NCBI RefSeq assembly: GCF_018128905.1
Contig: NZ_CP063808.1
Span: forward strand, 1,798,001-1,862,000
DNA: 64,000 nucleotides
From: Streptomyces sp. A2-16
GTDB taxonomy: Bacteria > Actinomycetota > Actinomycetes > Streptomycetales > Streptomycetaceae
Reading direction: 5' to 3'
Every line of letters begins with the position of its first letter. Position 1 is the stretch's first letter. Below, piece by piece: positions 2-31,152 of this stretch. The translations under genes and the position numbers were made by a program. A model generated the notes under the pieces. It was not told the origin of the DNA, did not search any database, and saw nothing but the letters and a program-made list of their open reading frames with translations.

Positions 2-1231
2 GCCCGGTCCGCCCTGATGCTCATCGACCTCGACCGTTTCCGCTCGGTCAACGACACCCTCGGCCACCTCGCCGGCGACCGGCTCCTCCTGCAGATCGCC
101 GACCGGCTGCGGATCGCCCTGCCGCGCGGGGCGGAGGCGGCGCGGCTCGGCGGCGACGAGTTCGCCGTCTTACTGCCGGTCGCCGACTCCACGACCTCCG
201 CGACCCGGGTCGCCCGCAACCTGGTCGCCGCCCTCAGCTCCCCGCTCGACCTCGACGGACTCACCCTCGTCCTGGAGGCCAGCGCCGGGGTCGCCGTCTT
301 CCCCGACCACGCCCTGGATGCCGAGGGGCTGCTGCGCCGCGCCGACGTGGCGATGTACCAGGCCAAGCGGGACCGTACGGGAGTGGAGGTGTACGAGTCC
401 AAGCGGGACTCCAACACCCCCGACCGGCTCGGGCTCCTGGGCGATCTGCGCCGGGCCCTGGACGCGCACGAGGTGCAGCTGCACTACCAGCCCAAGGTCC
501 GCTTCGACGGACAGGTCGCCGGCCTGGAGGCCCTGGTGCGCTGGGTGCACCCGGAGCGCGGGAAGGTACCGCCGGACGAGTTCATCGCCATCGCCGAGTC
601 GTCCGGCCTGATGCCCCACCTCACCGAGTACGTCCTCGACACGGCCCTCGCCCAGGTCGCCGAGTGGCGGGCGCAAGGCCTGTTCGTGCCGGTGGCGGTC
701 AACGTCTCCCCGCGTGACGTCCACACCCCGGGCTTCGCCGGCTCCGTCGCCGCCCGGCTGGCCCGGCACGGCGTCCCGGCGGGAGCGCTCCAACTGGAGA
801 TCACCGAACACGTCCTGCTGGAGGACCCCTCGCGGGCCGCGGACACCCTCGCCGCGCTGACCGGGCACGGCGTGAAGATGTCCCTGGACGACTTCGGCAC
901 CGGTTACTCCTCCCTGGTCCACCTGCGCCGCCTCCCCGTCAGCGAACTGAAGATCGACCGCTCGTTCGTGGCCAAGCTGGCCGTCGACACCGAGGACGCG
1001 GAGATCGTCCGCTGCACGGTCGACCTCGCCCACTCCCTGGGCCTCCTGGTCGTGGCGGAGGGCGTCGAGGACGACGAGACCTGGGAGCGTCTGCGCGACA
1101 TGGGCTGCGACGCCGTACAGGGCTGGCTGGTGGCGGCGGCGATGCCGCCGGAGGAGACGACGGCGTGGCTGCGGGCGCGGGGTTCGCGCGGTTGGCAGCG
1201 TCCTCGGGCGGCCCTGCCGGCGGCCGAGTAG
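2..1231 (+). CDS. rmdB: GGDEF-EAL c-di-GMP cyclase/phosphodiesterase, C-terminal part (5' end outside window)
   Basis: The reading frame is open from base 2, so the start and any membrane or sensor region lie left of the window. About 409 residues are visible. The GGDEF domain comes first, with an intact GGDEF at visible residues 50-54 and the metal-binding IDLDRF upstream. The EAL domain follows with all key residues: EAL at about 176-178, Asn in [18 protein letters not shown] from about 296, LKID and AEGVE. By family knowledge both c-di-GMP synthesis and hydrolysis are possible. Codon 57 (bases 170-172), two codons after GGDEF, is TTA, which in Streptomyces needs the developmentally regulated bldA tRNA. 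The name rmdB rests on domain makeup and remembered synteny next to gatCAB, so the family is certain and the orthology only moderately so. Confidence 0.85.
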
Positions 1232-1262: not shown

Positions 1263-1328
1263 CGTGGCAGGGTGCGGGTGGCCCCGGTGGGGCTCGATCG
1301 GCGTCGGCGGCCGCGGCCCGGCAAACCG

Positions 1329-1360
1329 TTTAACGGCCCGAGCCCCCCGCCCCCTAGGAT
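1329..1360 (+). promoter_or_regulatory. Possible gatC promoter
   Basis: TAGGAT at 1355-1360 is a good match to a Streptomyces -10 box and sits 40 bases before the gatC ATG. A weak -35-like TTTAAC lies at 1329-1334, but the 20-base spacer is long. Only the -10 box is reasonably convincing. Confidence 0.3.
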
Positions 1361-1400
1361 TGAGCCCAAACCACACACACTCACCCCAGAGGATCGCTGC

Positions 1401-1697
1401 ATGCCTGGCATCACGCGCGAGGAGGTCGCCCACCTCGCACGGCTGGCGCGTCTGGAGCTGAAGCCCGAAGAGCTCGAGCACTTCGCAGGACAGCTGGACG
1501 ACATCATCGGCGCGGTCGCACGCGTCAGTGAGGTCGCCGACCAAGACGTACCGCCGACCTCGCACCCGCTCCCGCTGACGAACGTCATGCGGGCGGACGA
1601 GGTCCGTCCGTCGCTCACCCCCGAGCAGGCGCTCTCCGGCGCCCCGGCCCAGGAGCAGCAGCGTTTCAAGGTGCCGCAGATCCTGGGGGAGGACTAA
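1401..1697 (+). CDS. gatC: Asp-tRNA(Asn)/Glu-tRNA(Gln) amidotransferase subunit C
   Basis: A 98-residue protein with the normal length and sequence of GatC, opening [20 protein letters not shown] and ending with the conserved [10 protein letters not shown]-type region (here [10 protein letters not shown]). GatC is the small scaffold of the GatCAB complex, which amidates Glu-tRNA(Gln), and Asp-tRNA(Asn) where needed, in the cytoplasm. The ATG at 1401 is chosen because homology begins there. The frame is open further upstream, but that part is shadow sequence. gatA starts 5 bases after the stop, so the two are co-transcribed. Confidence 0.95.
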
Positions 1698-1702
1698 TCG
1701 CC

Positions 1703-3192
<1,490 letters not shown>

Positions 3193-3196
<4 letters not shown>

Positions 3197-17893: not shown

Positions 17894-20890
17894 GTGAGTT
17901 CGCCCCCGTCTCCCACGACCACTCTCGACGGAGCGCTGCGGGCCCGGCCCGCACGGGGGGCGCTGCCCTCCCGGCCGCCGGCCTTCCGCGGCGGGTCGAG
18001 CCTGGTCCACCAACTCCTCCTCGCCCTGGTGTGCGCGGGATACGCCGTCGGTTCCGCACTCGGCTGGGGCTCGCGCGAAGCGGCCCTGATCATGGGCGAC
18101 TTCGGGCTGAGCGCCGCGGCGGGCACCGCCGCCGTGTCGTGCTTCGTCTACGCCCGCAACCGCAGGGTCCGCTTTCGGCCCGCCTGGCTGCTCTTCGCGC
18201 TCTCCTCGACGATGGCGTCCCTCGGCAACCTGATCTGGGGGTGGTACGAAGTCGTCCTGGGCCGCAACGTGCCCAACCCGAGCTACGCCGACCTGTTCTT
18301 CCTCTGCTTCGCGCCACCCGCCATCGTGGGCCTGCTGGTCCTCGCCAAGCGGCCGGTGACGAAGGCGGGTTGGGTCTGCCTGGGCCTCGACGCCTGGCTG
18401 ATCGGCGGCTCGCTGCTCACGCTCTCGTGGAGCCTCGCCCTGGCCCAGGCGGCCAAGTCGGAGGGGCCCAGCGTCGCGCACACCGCGCTGTCCCTGGCGT
18501 ACCCGCTGCTGGACATCGCCCTGGTCAGCATGGTCCTCGCCCTGCACTTCCGGCGCTCGGCGGTCAACCGCACCGCGGTGAACACCGCGATCGGCGCGCT
18601 CGCCCTGACCGTGATGTGCGACGCCCTGTTCACCTCGCCGCTGCTCCACAACAACTACCGCTCCGGCCAATTGCTGGACGCCGGCTGGTTCGCCGGCTCC
18701 CTGCTCCTCGCCTACGCCCCCTGGGCCGCGCCCCGGCTGTCGGGCGGTGACCGGCAGCGGCCGGCCGGGCACACGCGCGTGGTCCACGAACACCTGCCCA
18801 GGCAGCGGTTCGGGATCCAGCACCACCCGTCCGCGCAGGGAGCGCAGGGCGGTGAGCACGGTCGGTATCCGGCCACCCGCCCCATCACCGGGTCGCTGGC
18901 GGCCCTCACCCCGTATCTCGCCGCCGCCGTCTGCACGCTGGGGATCCTCTACAACGTCCTCAACGGCCGCAGCGTGGACCGCGTCGTGCTGCTCACCGGC
19001 GGCACCGTCGTGCTCGCGCTCGTGATGCGCCAGGGCATCATGCTGCTCGACAACATCACCCTCACCCAGGAACTGGCGCAGAAGGAGAACCACTTCCGCT
19101 CCCTGGTGCAGGGCTCCAGCGACGTCATCATGATCGCCGCACCCAACGGCATCCTCCGCTACGTCTCCCCGGCGGCCGCAGGCGTCTACGGATGCCCCGC
19201 CGAGGAACTCGTGGGCACGGAACTGGCCGGTCTCATCCACCCCGAGGACCTGGGCTGCGTGGTGCACGAGGTGCGCCGCTTCCTCGCCGCCAACCCCCTC
19301 GAAGAACCCACCACCCGCATCGAGTGCCGCTTCAAGTCCGGCGACGGCGGCTGGCTCAACGTCGAGTCCACCGTCAACCGTCACCACGGCGGCCTCATCT
19401 TCAACAGCCGGGACGTGACCGAAAGAGTGCGCCTGCAGGCGCAGCTCCAGCACAACGCCGAGCACGACCCGCTGACCGACCTGCCCAACCGCGCCCTGTT
19501 CACCCGGCGCGTCCAGCAGGCCCTGTCCGGCCGCCGTTCCTCCGACCGCGGCACGGCCGTCCTCTTCATCGACCTGGACGGCTTCAAGGCCGTCAACGAC
19601 ACGATCGGACACCAGGCCGGGGACGAACTGCTCGTCCAGGCCGCCCGCAGACTGCAGGACGCGGTCCGCCACGGCGACACCGCATCCCGGCTCGGCGGGG
19701 ACGAGTTCGCCGCCCTGATCGTCGGGGACGGCACCCGGGACCGCACCGCACGCGAAGGCCACATCCTGGAGCTCGCCGACCGTCTCAGGATCACGCTCTC
19801 GCAGCCGTACCTCATCGACGGCAACGATGTCCGGGTCGCCGCCTCCATCGGTGTCGCCTTCGCCGAACCCGGCCTCGGAGCGGGCGAGCTCCTGCGCAAC
19901 GCGGACCTCGCGATGTACCGCGCCAAGGCGGGCGGCAAGGGCCGCGTCGAGCTGTACGCGCCCCAGATGCAGCAGGACGTCGTCCGCAAGGCGGAGCTGG
20001 CCACACGCCTGCGTGCCGCGCTGCACGACGGCGAGTTCGCCCTGCTGCACCAGCCCGTGGTCTGTCTGGAGGACGGCCGGATCACCTCGCTCTCCGCCCA
20101 GGCGCGCTGGCGCTCCTCCCAGGGGGTGCTGTTCACGCCCGCGGAGTTCCTGCGGGTGGCCGAGGACAGCGACCGGACGCAGGAGCTGGGGCGCTGGATC
20201 CTGGAGGAGGCCGTGGAACAGGCCGCCGAGCGGGCGGCCAACGGCCTCACCGTGCCCGTGGCGGTCAGGATGAGTGCCCAGCGGCTCCTCGACCGCTCGC
20301 TGCCCCTGGGCTCCGTCGAGGCGCTGTTGACCCGGCACGGGCTGCCCTCGGGCTCCCTGGTCATCGAGCTCTCCGACACCGACCCCCGGGTCTCCCTGGA
20401 CGAGCTGGAGCGCCGGCTGACCGCGATCCGGCGCGTCGGGGTCCGGATCGCTCTGGACGGGTTCGGCAGCGGTTACGCGGCGATCACCGCGCTGCGCAGA
20501 CTCCCCGTCGACGTGCTGAAGCTCGACCGCAGTCTGGTCGAGGGCGTCGTGGAGTCCGCCCGGCTGCACAAGATCACCAGCGGGCTGCTCAGGATCGCCG
20601 GGGACCTCGGGCTGCAGTCCGTGGCCGACGGGGTGGACCTTCCCGAACAGGTGGTCGCCCTGCGCGCGATGGGCTGCACGCACGGCCAGGGCATGGCGTT
20701 CGCCGGGCCGTTGGACGAGTACCGGCTGCGCAGGGCGCTGGCCTCGGGGCACTATCCGGTGCCGCACGGCTCGGCGGAGCCCGCGTTCGCCGGCGGGGGT
20801 GCGGGGGTGTACACCGGTGGCATGACTGCCGTACTCGGTGGTGGGACGCCCCTCCGCTCACATAATGAGACTCCCGTCCCACCCACTTGA
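17894..20890 (+). CDS. cdgC: Membrane PAS-GGDEF-EAL protein with degenerate EAL domain (CdgC-like)
   Basis: A 998-residue protein. About 8-10 membrane helices (residues about 35-380) include a second set starting LAALTPYLAAAVCTLGIL. A PAS domain follows (about 398-515), then GGDEF with the motif intact at 601-605, then an EAL domain. In the EAL domain the key residues are replaced: SAQ for EAL (734-736), Arg for the metal Asn in VAVRMS, Asp for Glu in ELSD, DG for DD in LDGFGSGY, and ADGVD for AEGVE. So c-di-GMP synthesis looks possible and hydrolysis unlikely. GTG 17894 is chosen because GGGAGG precedes it and codon bias is poor upstream; ATG 17699 is the alternative. The name rests on remembered synteny beside ilvB. 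Confidence 0.85.
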   Translation: MSSPPSPTTTLDGALRARPARGALPSRPPAFRGGSSLVHQLLLALVCAGYAVGSALGWGSREAALIMGDFGLSAAAGTAAVSCFVYARNRRVRFRPAWLLFALSSTMASLGNLIWGWYEVVLGRNVPNPSYADLFFLCFAPPAIVGLLVLAKRPVTKAGWVCLGLDAWLIGGSLLTLSWSLALAQAAKSEGPSVAHTALSLAYPLLDIALVSMVLALHFRRSAVNRTAVNTAIGALALTVMCDALFTSPLLHNNYRSGQLLDAGWFAGSLLLAYAPWAAPRLSGGDRQRPAGHTRVVHEHLPRQRFGIQHHPSAQGAQGGEHGRYPATRPITGSLAALTPYLAAAVCTLGILYNVLNGRSVDRVVLLTGGTVVLALVMRQGIMLLDNITLTQELAQKENHFRSLVQGSSDVIMIAAPNGILRYVSPAAAGVYGCPAEELVGTELAGLIHPEDLGCVVHEVRRFLAANPLEEPTTRIECRFKSGDGGWLNVESTVNRHHGGLIFNSRDVTERVRLQAQLQHNAEHDPLTDLPNRALFTRRVQQALSGRRSSDRGTAVLFIDLDGFKAVNDTIGHQAGDELLVQAARRLQDAVRHGDTASRLGGDEFAALIVGDGTRDRTAREGHILELADRLRITLSQPYLIDGNDVRVAASIGVAFAEPGLGAGELLRNADLAMYRAKAGGKGRVELYAPQMQQDVVRKAELATRLRAALHDGEFALLHQPVVCLEDGRITSLSAQARWRSSQGVLFTPAEFLRVAEDSDRTQELGRWILEEAVEQAAERAANGLTVPVAVRMSAQRLLDRSLPLGSVEALLTRHGLPSGSLVIELSDTDPRVSLDELERRLTAIRRVGVRIALDGFGSGYAAITALRRLPVDVLKLDRSLVEGVVESARLHKITSGLLRIAGDLGLQSVADGVDLPEQVVALRAMGCTHGQGMAFAGPLDEYRLRRALASGHYPVPHGSAEPAFAGGGAGVYTGGMTAVLGGGTPLRSHNETPVPPT
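20861..20866 (+). promoter_or_regulatory. Possible -10 box for the ilvBNC leader transcript
   Basis: CATAAT lies 58 bases before the leader peptide ATG, inside the last codons of the cdgC-like gene. No convincing -35 is seen. A transcript starting near 20872 would include the whole leader, hairpin and terminator. A TTGACA at 20887-20892 is too close to the leader start and has no -10 partner. Confidence 0.25.
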
Positions 20891-30079: not shown

Positions 30080-30146
30080 CCGGACATTCTCCCGCACGAC
30101 ACCGGGCCCTTCATACATCTGTCTGAGATCTGCGGCACGGATGCGT

Positions 30147-30156
30147 GACAGCTGTC
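30147..30156. promoter_or_regulatory. Perfect 10-bp palindrome in the proline regulator/dehydrogenase intergenic region
   Basis: GACAGCTGTC is self-complementary and lies 70 bases before the proline dehydrogenase start and 68 bases from the regulator start. It is a candidate operator half or core. No further copy is evident nearby, so confidence is low. Confidence 0.3.
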
Positions 30157-30225
30157 GATGGCCGACGATCGAGAGGATCCTTAGGTTTCACGGTGGTCCT
30201 GTCTGCTGGTCTGTGGAGGTGCCCC

Positions 30226-31152
30226 GTGCTGGGTCCCGTGATTCTTGCCGCGTCGCGCAGCGACCGGATGCGACGCCTGATCTCGGCGGCCCCGGTGACC
30301 AAGCGGGTCGTCGACCGCTTCATCCCCGGTGAGACGGTCGACGAGATCGTGCCGATCGTCCAGGAGCTCACCTCGAGGGGGCTGGAGCTGACCATGGACG
30401 TGGTCGGCGAGGACATCACCACGCCCGAGCAGGCGGAGGCAGCCCGGGACGCCTACCTCGCACTTGTCGAGCGGCTCAGGACGCTCGAACTGGGTACCAG
30501 GGCCGAGATGTCCGTGAAGCTGTCGATGTTCGGCCAGGCGCTTCCGGGCGGGCACGAGCTCGCGCTCGCCAACGTCCGTCCCGTCGTCGAGGCCGCCGCC
30601 GCCATCGGTACGACCGTCACGCTCGACGCCGAGGACCACACCACCCTCGACTCGATGTTCGCCATCCACGAGGAACTGCGGAAGGACTTCCCGCAGACCG
30701 GCTGTGTGATCCAGGCGTACCTGTTCCGCACCGAGGCCGACGCCCGCCGGCTCGCCGCGGCCGGCAGCCGGGTGCGGCTGGTGAAGGGCGCGTACAAGGA
30801 GCCCGCCGAGGTCGCCTACCAGCAGAAGCACGAGATCGACAAGGCGTACGTCCGGGTCCTGCGCGTCCTGATGGAGGGCGAGGGGTATCCGATGGTCGGC
30901 TCCCACGACCCGCGCCTGATCTCCATCGCCCAGGAACTCGCCCGGCAGGCGGGCCGCAAGCCCGACGAGTACGAGTTCCAGATGCTCTACGGCATCCGCG
31001 GCGACGAACACCTGCGCCTGGCCGCCGAGGGCCACCGCATGCGCGTCTACACGGCCTACGGCACCGACTGGTACGGCTACTTCATGAGGCGGCTCGCGGA
31101 GAAGCCGGCGAACCTGCGTTTCTTCGTCCGCAGCATGATCAGCAAAGGCTGA
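30226..31152 (+). CDS. Proline dehydrogenase (monofunctional)
   Basis: A 308-residue FAD enzyme that oxidises proline to pyrroline-5-carboxylate and feeds electrons to the membrane quinone pool. Family features: MKLSMFGQ-like strand (VKLSMFGQALP near 90), TLDAEDHTTLDSMF, VIQAYLFRTEADARRL, RLVKGAYKEP near 180, and the substrate-binding Arg pair in GYFMRRLAEKP near 285. GTG 30226 follows GTGGAGG. It is the short monofunctional form (putB/pruB type), with the P5C dehydrogenase as a separate gene 39 bases downstream. Confidence 0.95.
   Translation: MLGPVILAASRSDRMRRLISAAPVTKRVVDRFIPGETVDEIVPIVQELTSRGLELTMDVVGEDITTPEQAEAARDAYLALVERLRTLELGTRAEMSVKLSMFGQALPGGHELALANVRPVVEAAAAIGTTVTLDAEDHTTLDSMFAIHEELRKDFPQTGCVIQAYLFRTEADARRLAAAGSRVRLVKGAYKEPAEVAYQQKHEIDKAYVRVLRVLMEGEGYPMVGSHDPRLISIAQELARQAGRKPDEYEFQMLYGIRGDEHLRLAAEGHRMRVYTAYGTDWYGYFMRRLAEKPANLRFFVRSMISKG

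Follow-up and report, generated by a model that had tools for sequence, protein, structure and literature searches.

A clade-restricted TTA codon in the GGDEF domain of rmdB probably places this c-di-GMP phosphodiesterase gene under bldA control in Streptomyces sp. A2-16

Control of the cyclic di-GMP (c-di-GMP) phosphodiesterase gene rmdB by bldA, through a TTA codon, is real but already known. In Streptomyces ghanaensis, rmdB (SSFG_02196) is reported to contain one TTA codon, which precedes the EAL domain (PMC7026642, 2020). Translation of an rmdB-gusA fusion carrying this codon nearly stops in a ΔbldA strain, while a version with CTG in its place is unaffected, and the RmdB-GusA fusion gives zero activity for the first 24 h with TTA, whereas its CTG form shows low activity from 18 h onward (PMC7026642). 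The same work, in which c-di-GMP was measured for rmdB mutants and overexpressors, reports a 2-fold increase of c-di-GMP in ΔrmdB cells and ties RmdB to the c-di-GMP level and to BldD. The idea that bldA controls c-di-GMP turnover through the rmdB TTA is therefore not new, and the protein half of the comparison proposed in the initial annotation of this DNA (a bldA mutant, and a change of TTA to CTG) was already published for S. ghanaensis in 2020.

Two further reports describe a TTA in a gene of this type from sequence tabulation, unlike the case of S. ghanaensis. A 2013 survey lists a TTA in SCO5495 in 7 of 14 Streptomyces and also in the Kitasatospora setae orthologue (PMC4255298, Table 2). 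A 2023 survey lists a TTA at nucleotides 1171-1173 (codon 391) of the S. coelicolor diguanylate phosphodiesterase gene FQ762_RS28405 as one of 11 TTA codons whose position is conserved in no less than half of the species that have the orthogroup; 8 of the 11 lie within the first 170 nucleotides of their genes (PMC10327506). From its product name and the position of the codon, we infer that FQ762_RS28405 is SCO5495. The developmental regulator gene adpA is a related case, with a TTA between its two domains and bldA-dependent expression, but its codon is listed in 14 of 14 Streptomyces (PMC4255298), whereas the rmdB codon described here is limited to one clade. In S. venezuelae, RmdB is a phosphodiesterase whose GGDEF domain binds sigmaWhiG (PMC13232838); its transcripts are abundant throughout the life cycle, and the protein is among the most abundant c-di-GMP enzymes (PMC6205966).

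We analyzed a 64,000-nucleotide stretch of DNA from Streptomyces sp. A2-16 (hereafter the window), the left edge of which cuts a gene encoding a GGDEF-EAL protein (Table 1). Using Pfam on the protein translated from the whole gene, we found a GGDEF domain (4.7e-41, residues 321-473) followed by an EAL domain (1e-71, residues 496-727), the order expected of an RmdB orthologue. By eye, the N-terminal region contains hydrophobic stretches, where published descriptions of RmdB place a transmembrane region of 6 or 8 helices, and the open frames 3' of the gene resemble gatC, gatA and gatB. The gene is nearer to counterparts in other Streptomyces (80 loci, best segments 77-96% identity; the best 80 of the matches listed in a named genome collection, from a one-way search) than to four own-genome paralogues (40-42%). 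On the basis of domains, neighbors and identity we refer to this gene as rmdB (SCO5495 in S. coelicolor), and its assignment as a putative rmdB orthologue, also made in the initial annotation, holds at the level of sequence. It shares with S. ghanaensis rmdB, a named orthologue with bldA-dependent translation, the domain order and the possession of one TTA before the EAL domain; the latter gene is from another species, and the position of its TTA is given only as ahead of the EAL domain.

Table 1. Features of the rmdB region, in window coordinates.
Feature	Coordinates	Strand	Basis
rmdB 3' part (GGDEF-EAL c-di-GMP phosphodiesterase)	2..1231	+	open frame; Pfam GGDEF + EAL
GGDEF motif	149..163	+	sequence read
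TTA leucine codon, the gene's only one, codon 393 from likely ATG	170..172	+	sequence read
EAL motif, intact	527..535	+	sequence read; EAL domain about 443-1138 (Pfam)
gatC, neighbor	1401..1697	+	inside ORF 1272..1697, ATG at 1401; named by eye
gatA, used as control gene	1703..3196	+	named by eye

Reading of the sequence bore out the claim that brought this gene to attention: visible codon 57 of the open frame is an in-frame TTA, separated from the GGDEF motif by two codons (GCC and GTC). As the frame continues through both Pfam domains, we rejected a misread frame as the source of this codon. The whole open frame, taken from the gene's locus in its own genome (L003), spans 777 codons from stop to stop and contains no other TTA. 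Its likely start, outside the window, is an ATG at L003:577 with a purine-rich stretch upstream, which gives a gene of 745 codons with the TTA inside the GGDEF domain and ahead of the EAL domain; its number from this start compares with codon 391 of FQ762_RS28405.

TTA is scarce in this part of the genome. Among open frames in the window with GC3 above 0.85 and at least 90 codons, a set that includes mechanical ORFs rather than genes only, 3 of 84 hold any TTA (4 TTA in 25,244 codons), and we found none in the aligned part of gatA from 68 relatives, the sole comparison gene for the background rate. Region-wide richness in TTA was rejected on these counts. One of the other two TTA-holding frames (30145-31152, + strand) resembles proline dehydrogenase by eye, and its TTA, at 30181 (codon 13 of the longest frame), is probably upstream of the true start; the other (41939-41370, - strand) holds two TTA (41921 and 41852), and its translation resembles a mechanical ORF rather than a gene.

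The genome of this strain contains a tRNA-Leu gene with anticodon TAA (contig C1 of genome G000, near 8,934,000; one match to the pattern used), and ARAGORN found no tRNA genes in the window. This genome has seven further GGDEF loci, three of which are edge-cut, and no TTA was present in the frames read there. A second GGDEF domain lies within the window at 19457-19942, ~18 kb 3' of rmdB; the part of its frame covered by the extracted locus (L004) contains no TTA.

A survey of rmdB orthologues, as the initial annotation had suggested, showed that the codon is shared well beyond this strain. At the same alignment column, TTA is present in 43 of the best 80 named orthologues listed, CTG in 29 and CTC in 8; since these are the 80 closest matches, the 43 give no estimate for the genus. 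In an even draw of 295 Streptomyces genomes, the exact context GDEFAV-TTA-LP was found in 104, with no hits in the reversed-pattern control columns, and a strain-specific TTA was therefore rejected. All 30 loci fetched from these 104 matches were rmdB with TTA in the same column, and the remaining 74 show the same 237-base spacing to an RmdB-specific tag at the few positions compared by eye. This tag was matched in 241 of the 295 genomes and had no match in 54; at the first 60 tag places listed from genomes lacking a TTA match, the codon was CTG in 43, CTC in 15, TTG in 1 and unreadable in 1. The resulting share of the genus (35%, 104/295) falls below the figure of 50% or more given in PMC10327506, a comparison between different species sets and with a pattern that here also demands the flanking residues.

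To extend the survey to other genera, we searched 15 genomes with a shorter protein; by their group codes, 13 belong to other genera and 2 to this genus. The 13 best other-genus matches carry CTG (12) or CTC (1) at this column, although for five of them identity is just 48-61% and they may not be orthologues. Four further loci of one other genus also carry CTG, so that TTA at the codon-393 site was found in none of 17 other-genus rows; the TTA listed for K. setae (PMC4255298) may be at another place in the gene. The TTA is also present in a record under the title Kitasatospora aureofaciens NRRL B-2183, which groups among Streptomyces rows; this title may be outdated.

To place the codon on a phylogeny, we collapsed 18 sets of identical rows, which reduced 212 rows to 193, and built a FastTree phylogeny of these distinct rows without the TTA codon itself. 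Left out were a row with an unreadable codon (L166), a row that duplicates the gene in the window (L138), the paralogues from the same genome and matches L222-L236, at 40% identity. All 78 TTA rows fall inside one clade of 98 (branch support 99), a clade that includes the record titled K. aureofaciens. With equal costs, parsimony required 15 changes, compared with a mean of 60.6 and a lowest value of 50 over 200 shuffles. When rooted on eight distant rows, the equal-cost reconstruction has 2 gains and 13 losses, and a gain cost that is doubled or fourfold gives 1 gain and 15 losses, whereas a doubled loss cost gives 18 gains and 2 losses; the direction of change therefore hinges on the choice of costs. 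A gatA tree of 68 taxa required 9 changes, as did an rmdB tree of 67 of those taxa, which argues that the TTA pattern is no quirk of the rmdB tree, although this check is not fully independent because gatA and rmdB are neighbors. Row L158 (genome G022), a member of the TTA clade, reads TTG here; this differs from TTA by a single base and may represent an intermediate in loss. The match in L166 (genome G223) covers only query residues 429-591, and its frame may be broken or its assembly faulty.

We consider it very probable that this TTA acts as a bldA-dependent translational gate on rmdB. For it are the status of the codon as the sole TTA of the gene, the presence of a tRNA-Leu(TAA) in the genome and the conservation of the codon in one large clade; the lack of TTA in the frames read at the other GGDEF loci and in gatA also counts in its favor. 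Against it, the codon is absent from 20 of the 98 clade rows, so it is dispensable, and at this site it is absent from most of the genus.

These absences, together with the few gains and 13-15 losses obtained on the gene tree under two cost choices, would also be expected of a rare codon that arose by chance, was fixed once in an ancestor and is slowly decaying, with little effect on the protein level in most species. We regard such a neutral relic as improbable, given how well the codon is kept. The TTA is kept in 78 of 98 clade rows; over 743 columns, TTG or a codon ending in A or T is kept more often only at columns 4, 7, 9, 12 and 14, all near the translation start. Among 77 near-invariant leucine columns, rare leucine codons occur in no more than 5 rows at 67 and in 6 to 23 rows, mostly as TTG, at nine; TTA itself appears at two other columns, once each. 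The strong reporter effect in S. ghanaensis (PMC7026642) also speaks against a codon of little consequence. As a separate observation, at each of the five start-region columns (L003:550-582), 93-100% of the clade rows that align at that column share a single codon ending in A or T, indicating that DNA around the rmdB start is conserved beyond the protein; this is consistent with a leader or ribosome-binding site and the ATG at L003:577.

A role for the codon in pausing translation for the folding of a membrane-tethered nascent chain within the GGDEF domain, instead of in bldA timing, is very unlikely: a mid-gene position past the putative transmembrane region, away from the gene starts where most of the TTA codons in PMC10327506 lie, would suit it, but in S. 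ghanaensis loss of bldA abolishes expression and CTG restores it (PMC7026642), and CTG or CTC suffices in most of the genus sampled.

The S. ghanaensis reporters thus support the proposal of the initial annotation that bldA controls rmdB through its TTA, and by analogy the same gate is presumably at work in Streptomyces sp. A2-16. Under this bldA-dependent gate, rmdB mRNA would be produced while ribosomes would be held at codon 393 until the UUA-reading leucine tRNA is present, and as this bldA-encoded tRNA matures late, the phosphodiesterase would be delayed. Codon 393 precedes the EAL domain and lies within the GGDEF domain, so without the tRNA the phosphodiesterase would not be made, nor would the GGDEF domain be completed. 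Given this location, the gate would extend to the domain through which RmdB binds sigmaWhiG in S. venezuelae, and both functions of RmdB would presumably be gated jointly. Until the bldA tRNA arrives, c-di-GMP would stay high, and BldD, as well as the RsiG-sigmaWhiG complex known from work in S. venezuelae, would remain engaged. The wild-type shift in timing looks modest, given that activity of the S. ghanaensis CTG reporter was only low when it appeared (PMC7026642). The bldA tRNA and c-di-GMP, both central to the control of Streptomyces development, would meet at one codon; this link is already published, and our survey adds a natural experiment in the form of close relatives that either carry or lack it.

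TTA codons also occur at other positions of rmdB, which we treat as a lead rather than a result. No second TTA was found within the aligned part of the 78 TTA holders, while among the 20 clade rows that lack the codon, 2 carry a TTA at another place in the gene. Outside the clade, TTA at other columns (nine columns) was found in 15 of 78 other Streptomyces rows, a raw count with relatives included, and in 4 of 17 other-genus rows. The counts in other Streptomyces suggest that the position of the TTA may turn over. It is possible, though we hold it only tentatively and think it rather unlikely, that the bldA gate on rmdB shifts position, with a gain at this site in one large clade, repeated losses, and TTA codons at other places in the gene taking over in other lineages. 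If so, position turnover would be an evolutionary switch in developmental timing, setting for each lineage the onset of c-di-GMP breakdown and of RmdB antagonism of the RsiG-sigmaWhiG complex. At five loci (L125, L165, L168, L174 and L188, the first two from one genome) the codon-393 site has no TTA, but one lies 306 codons farther upstream, ahead of the GGDEF domain.
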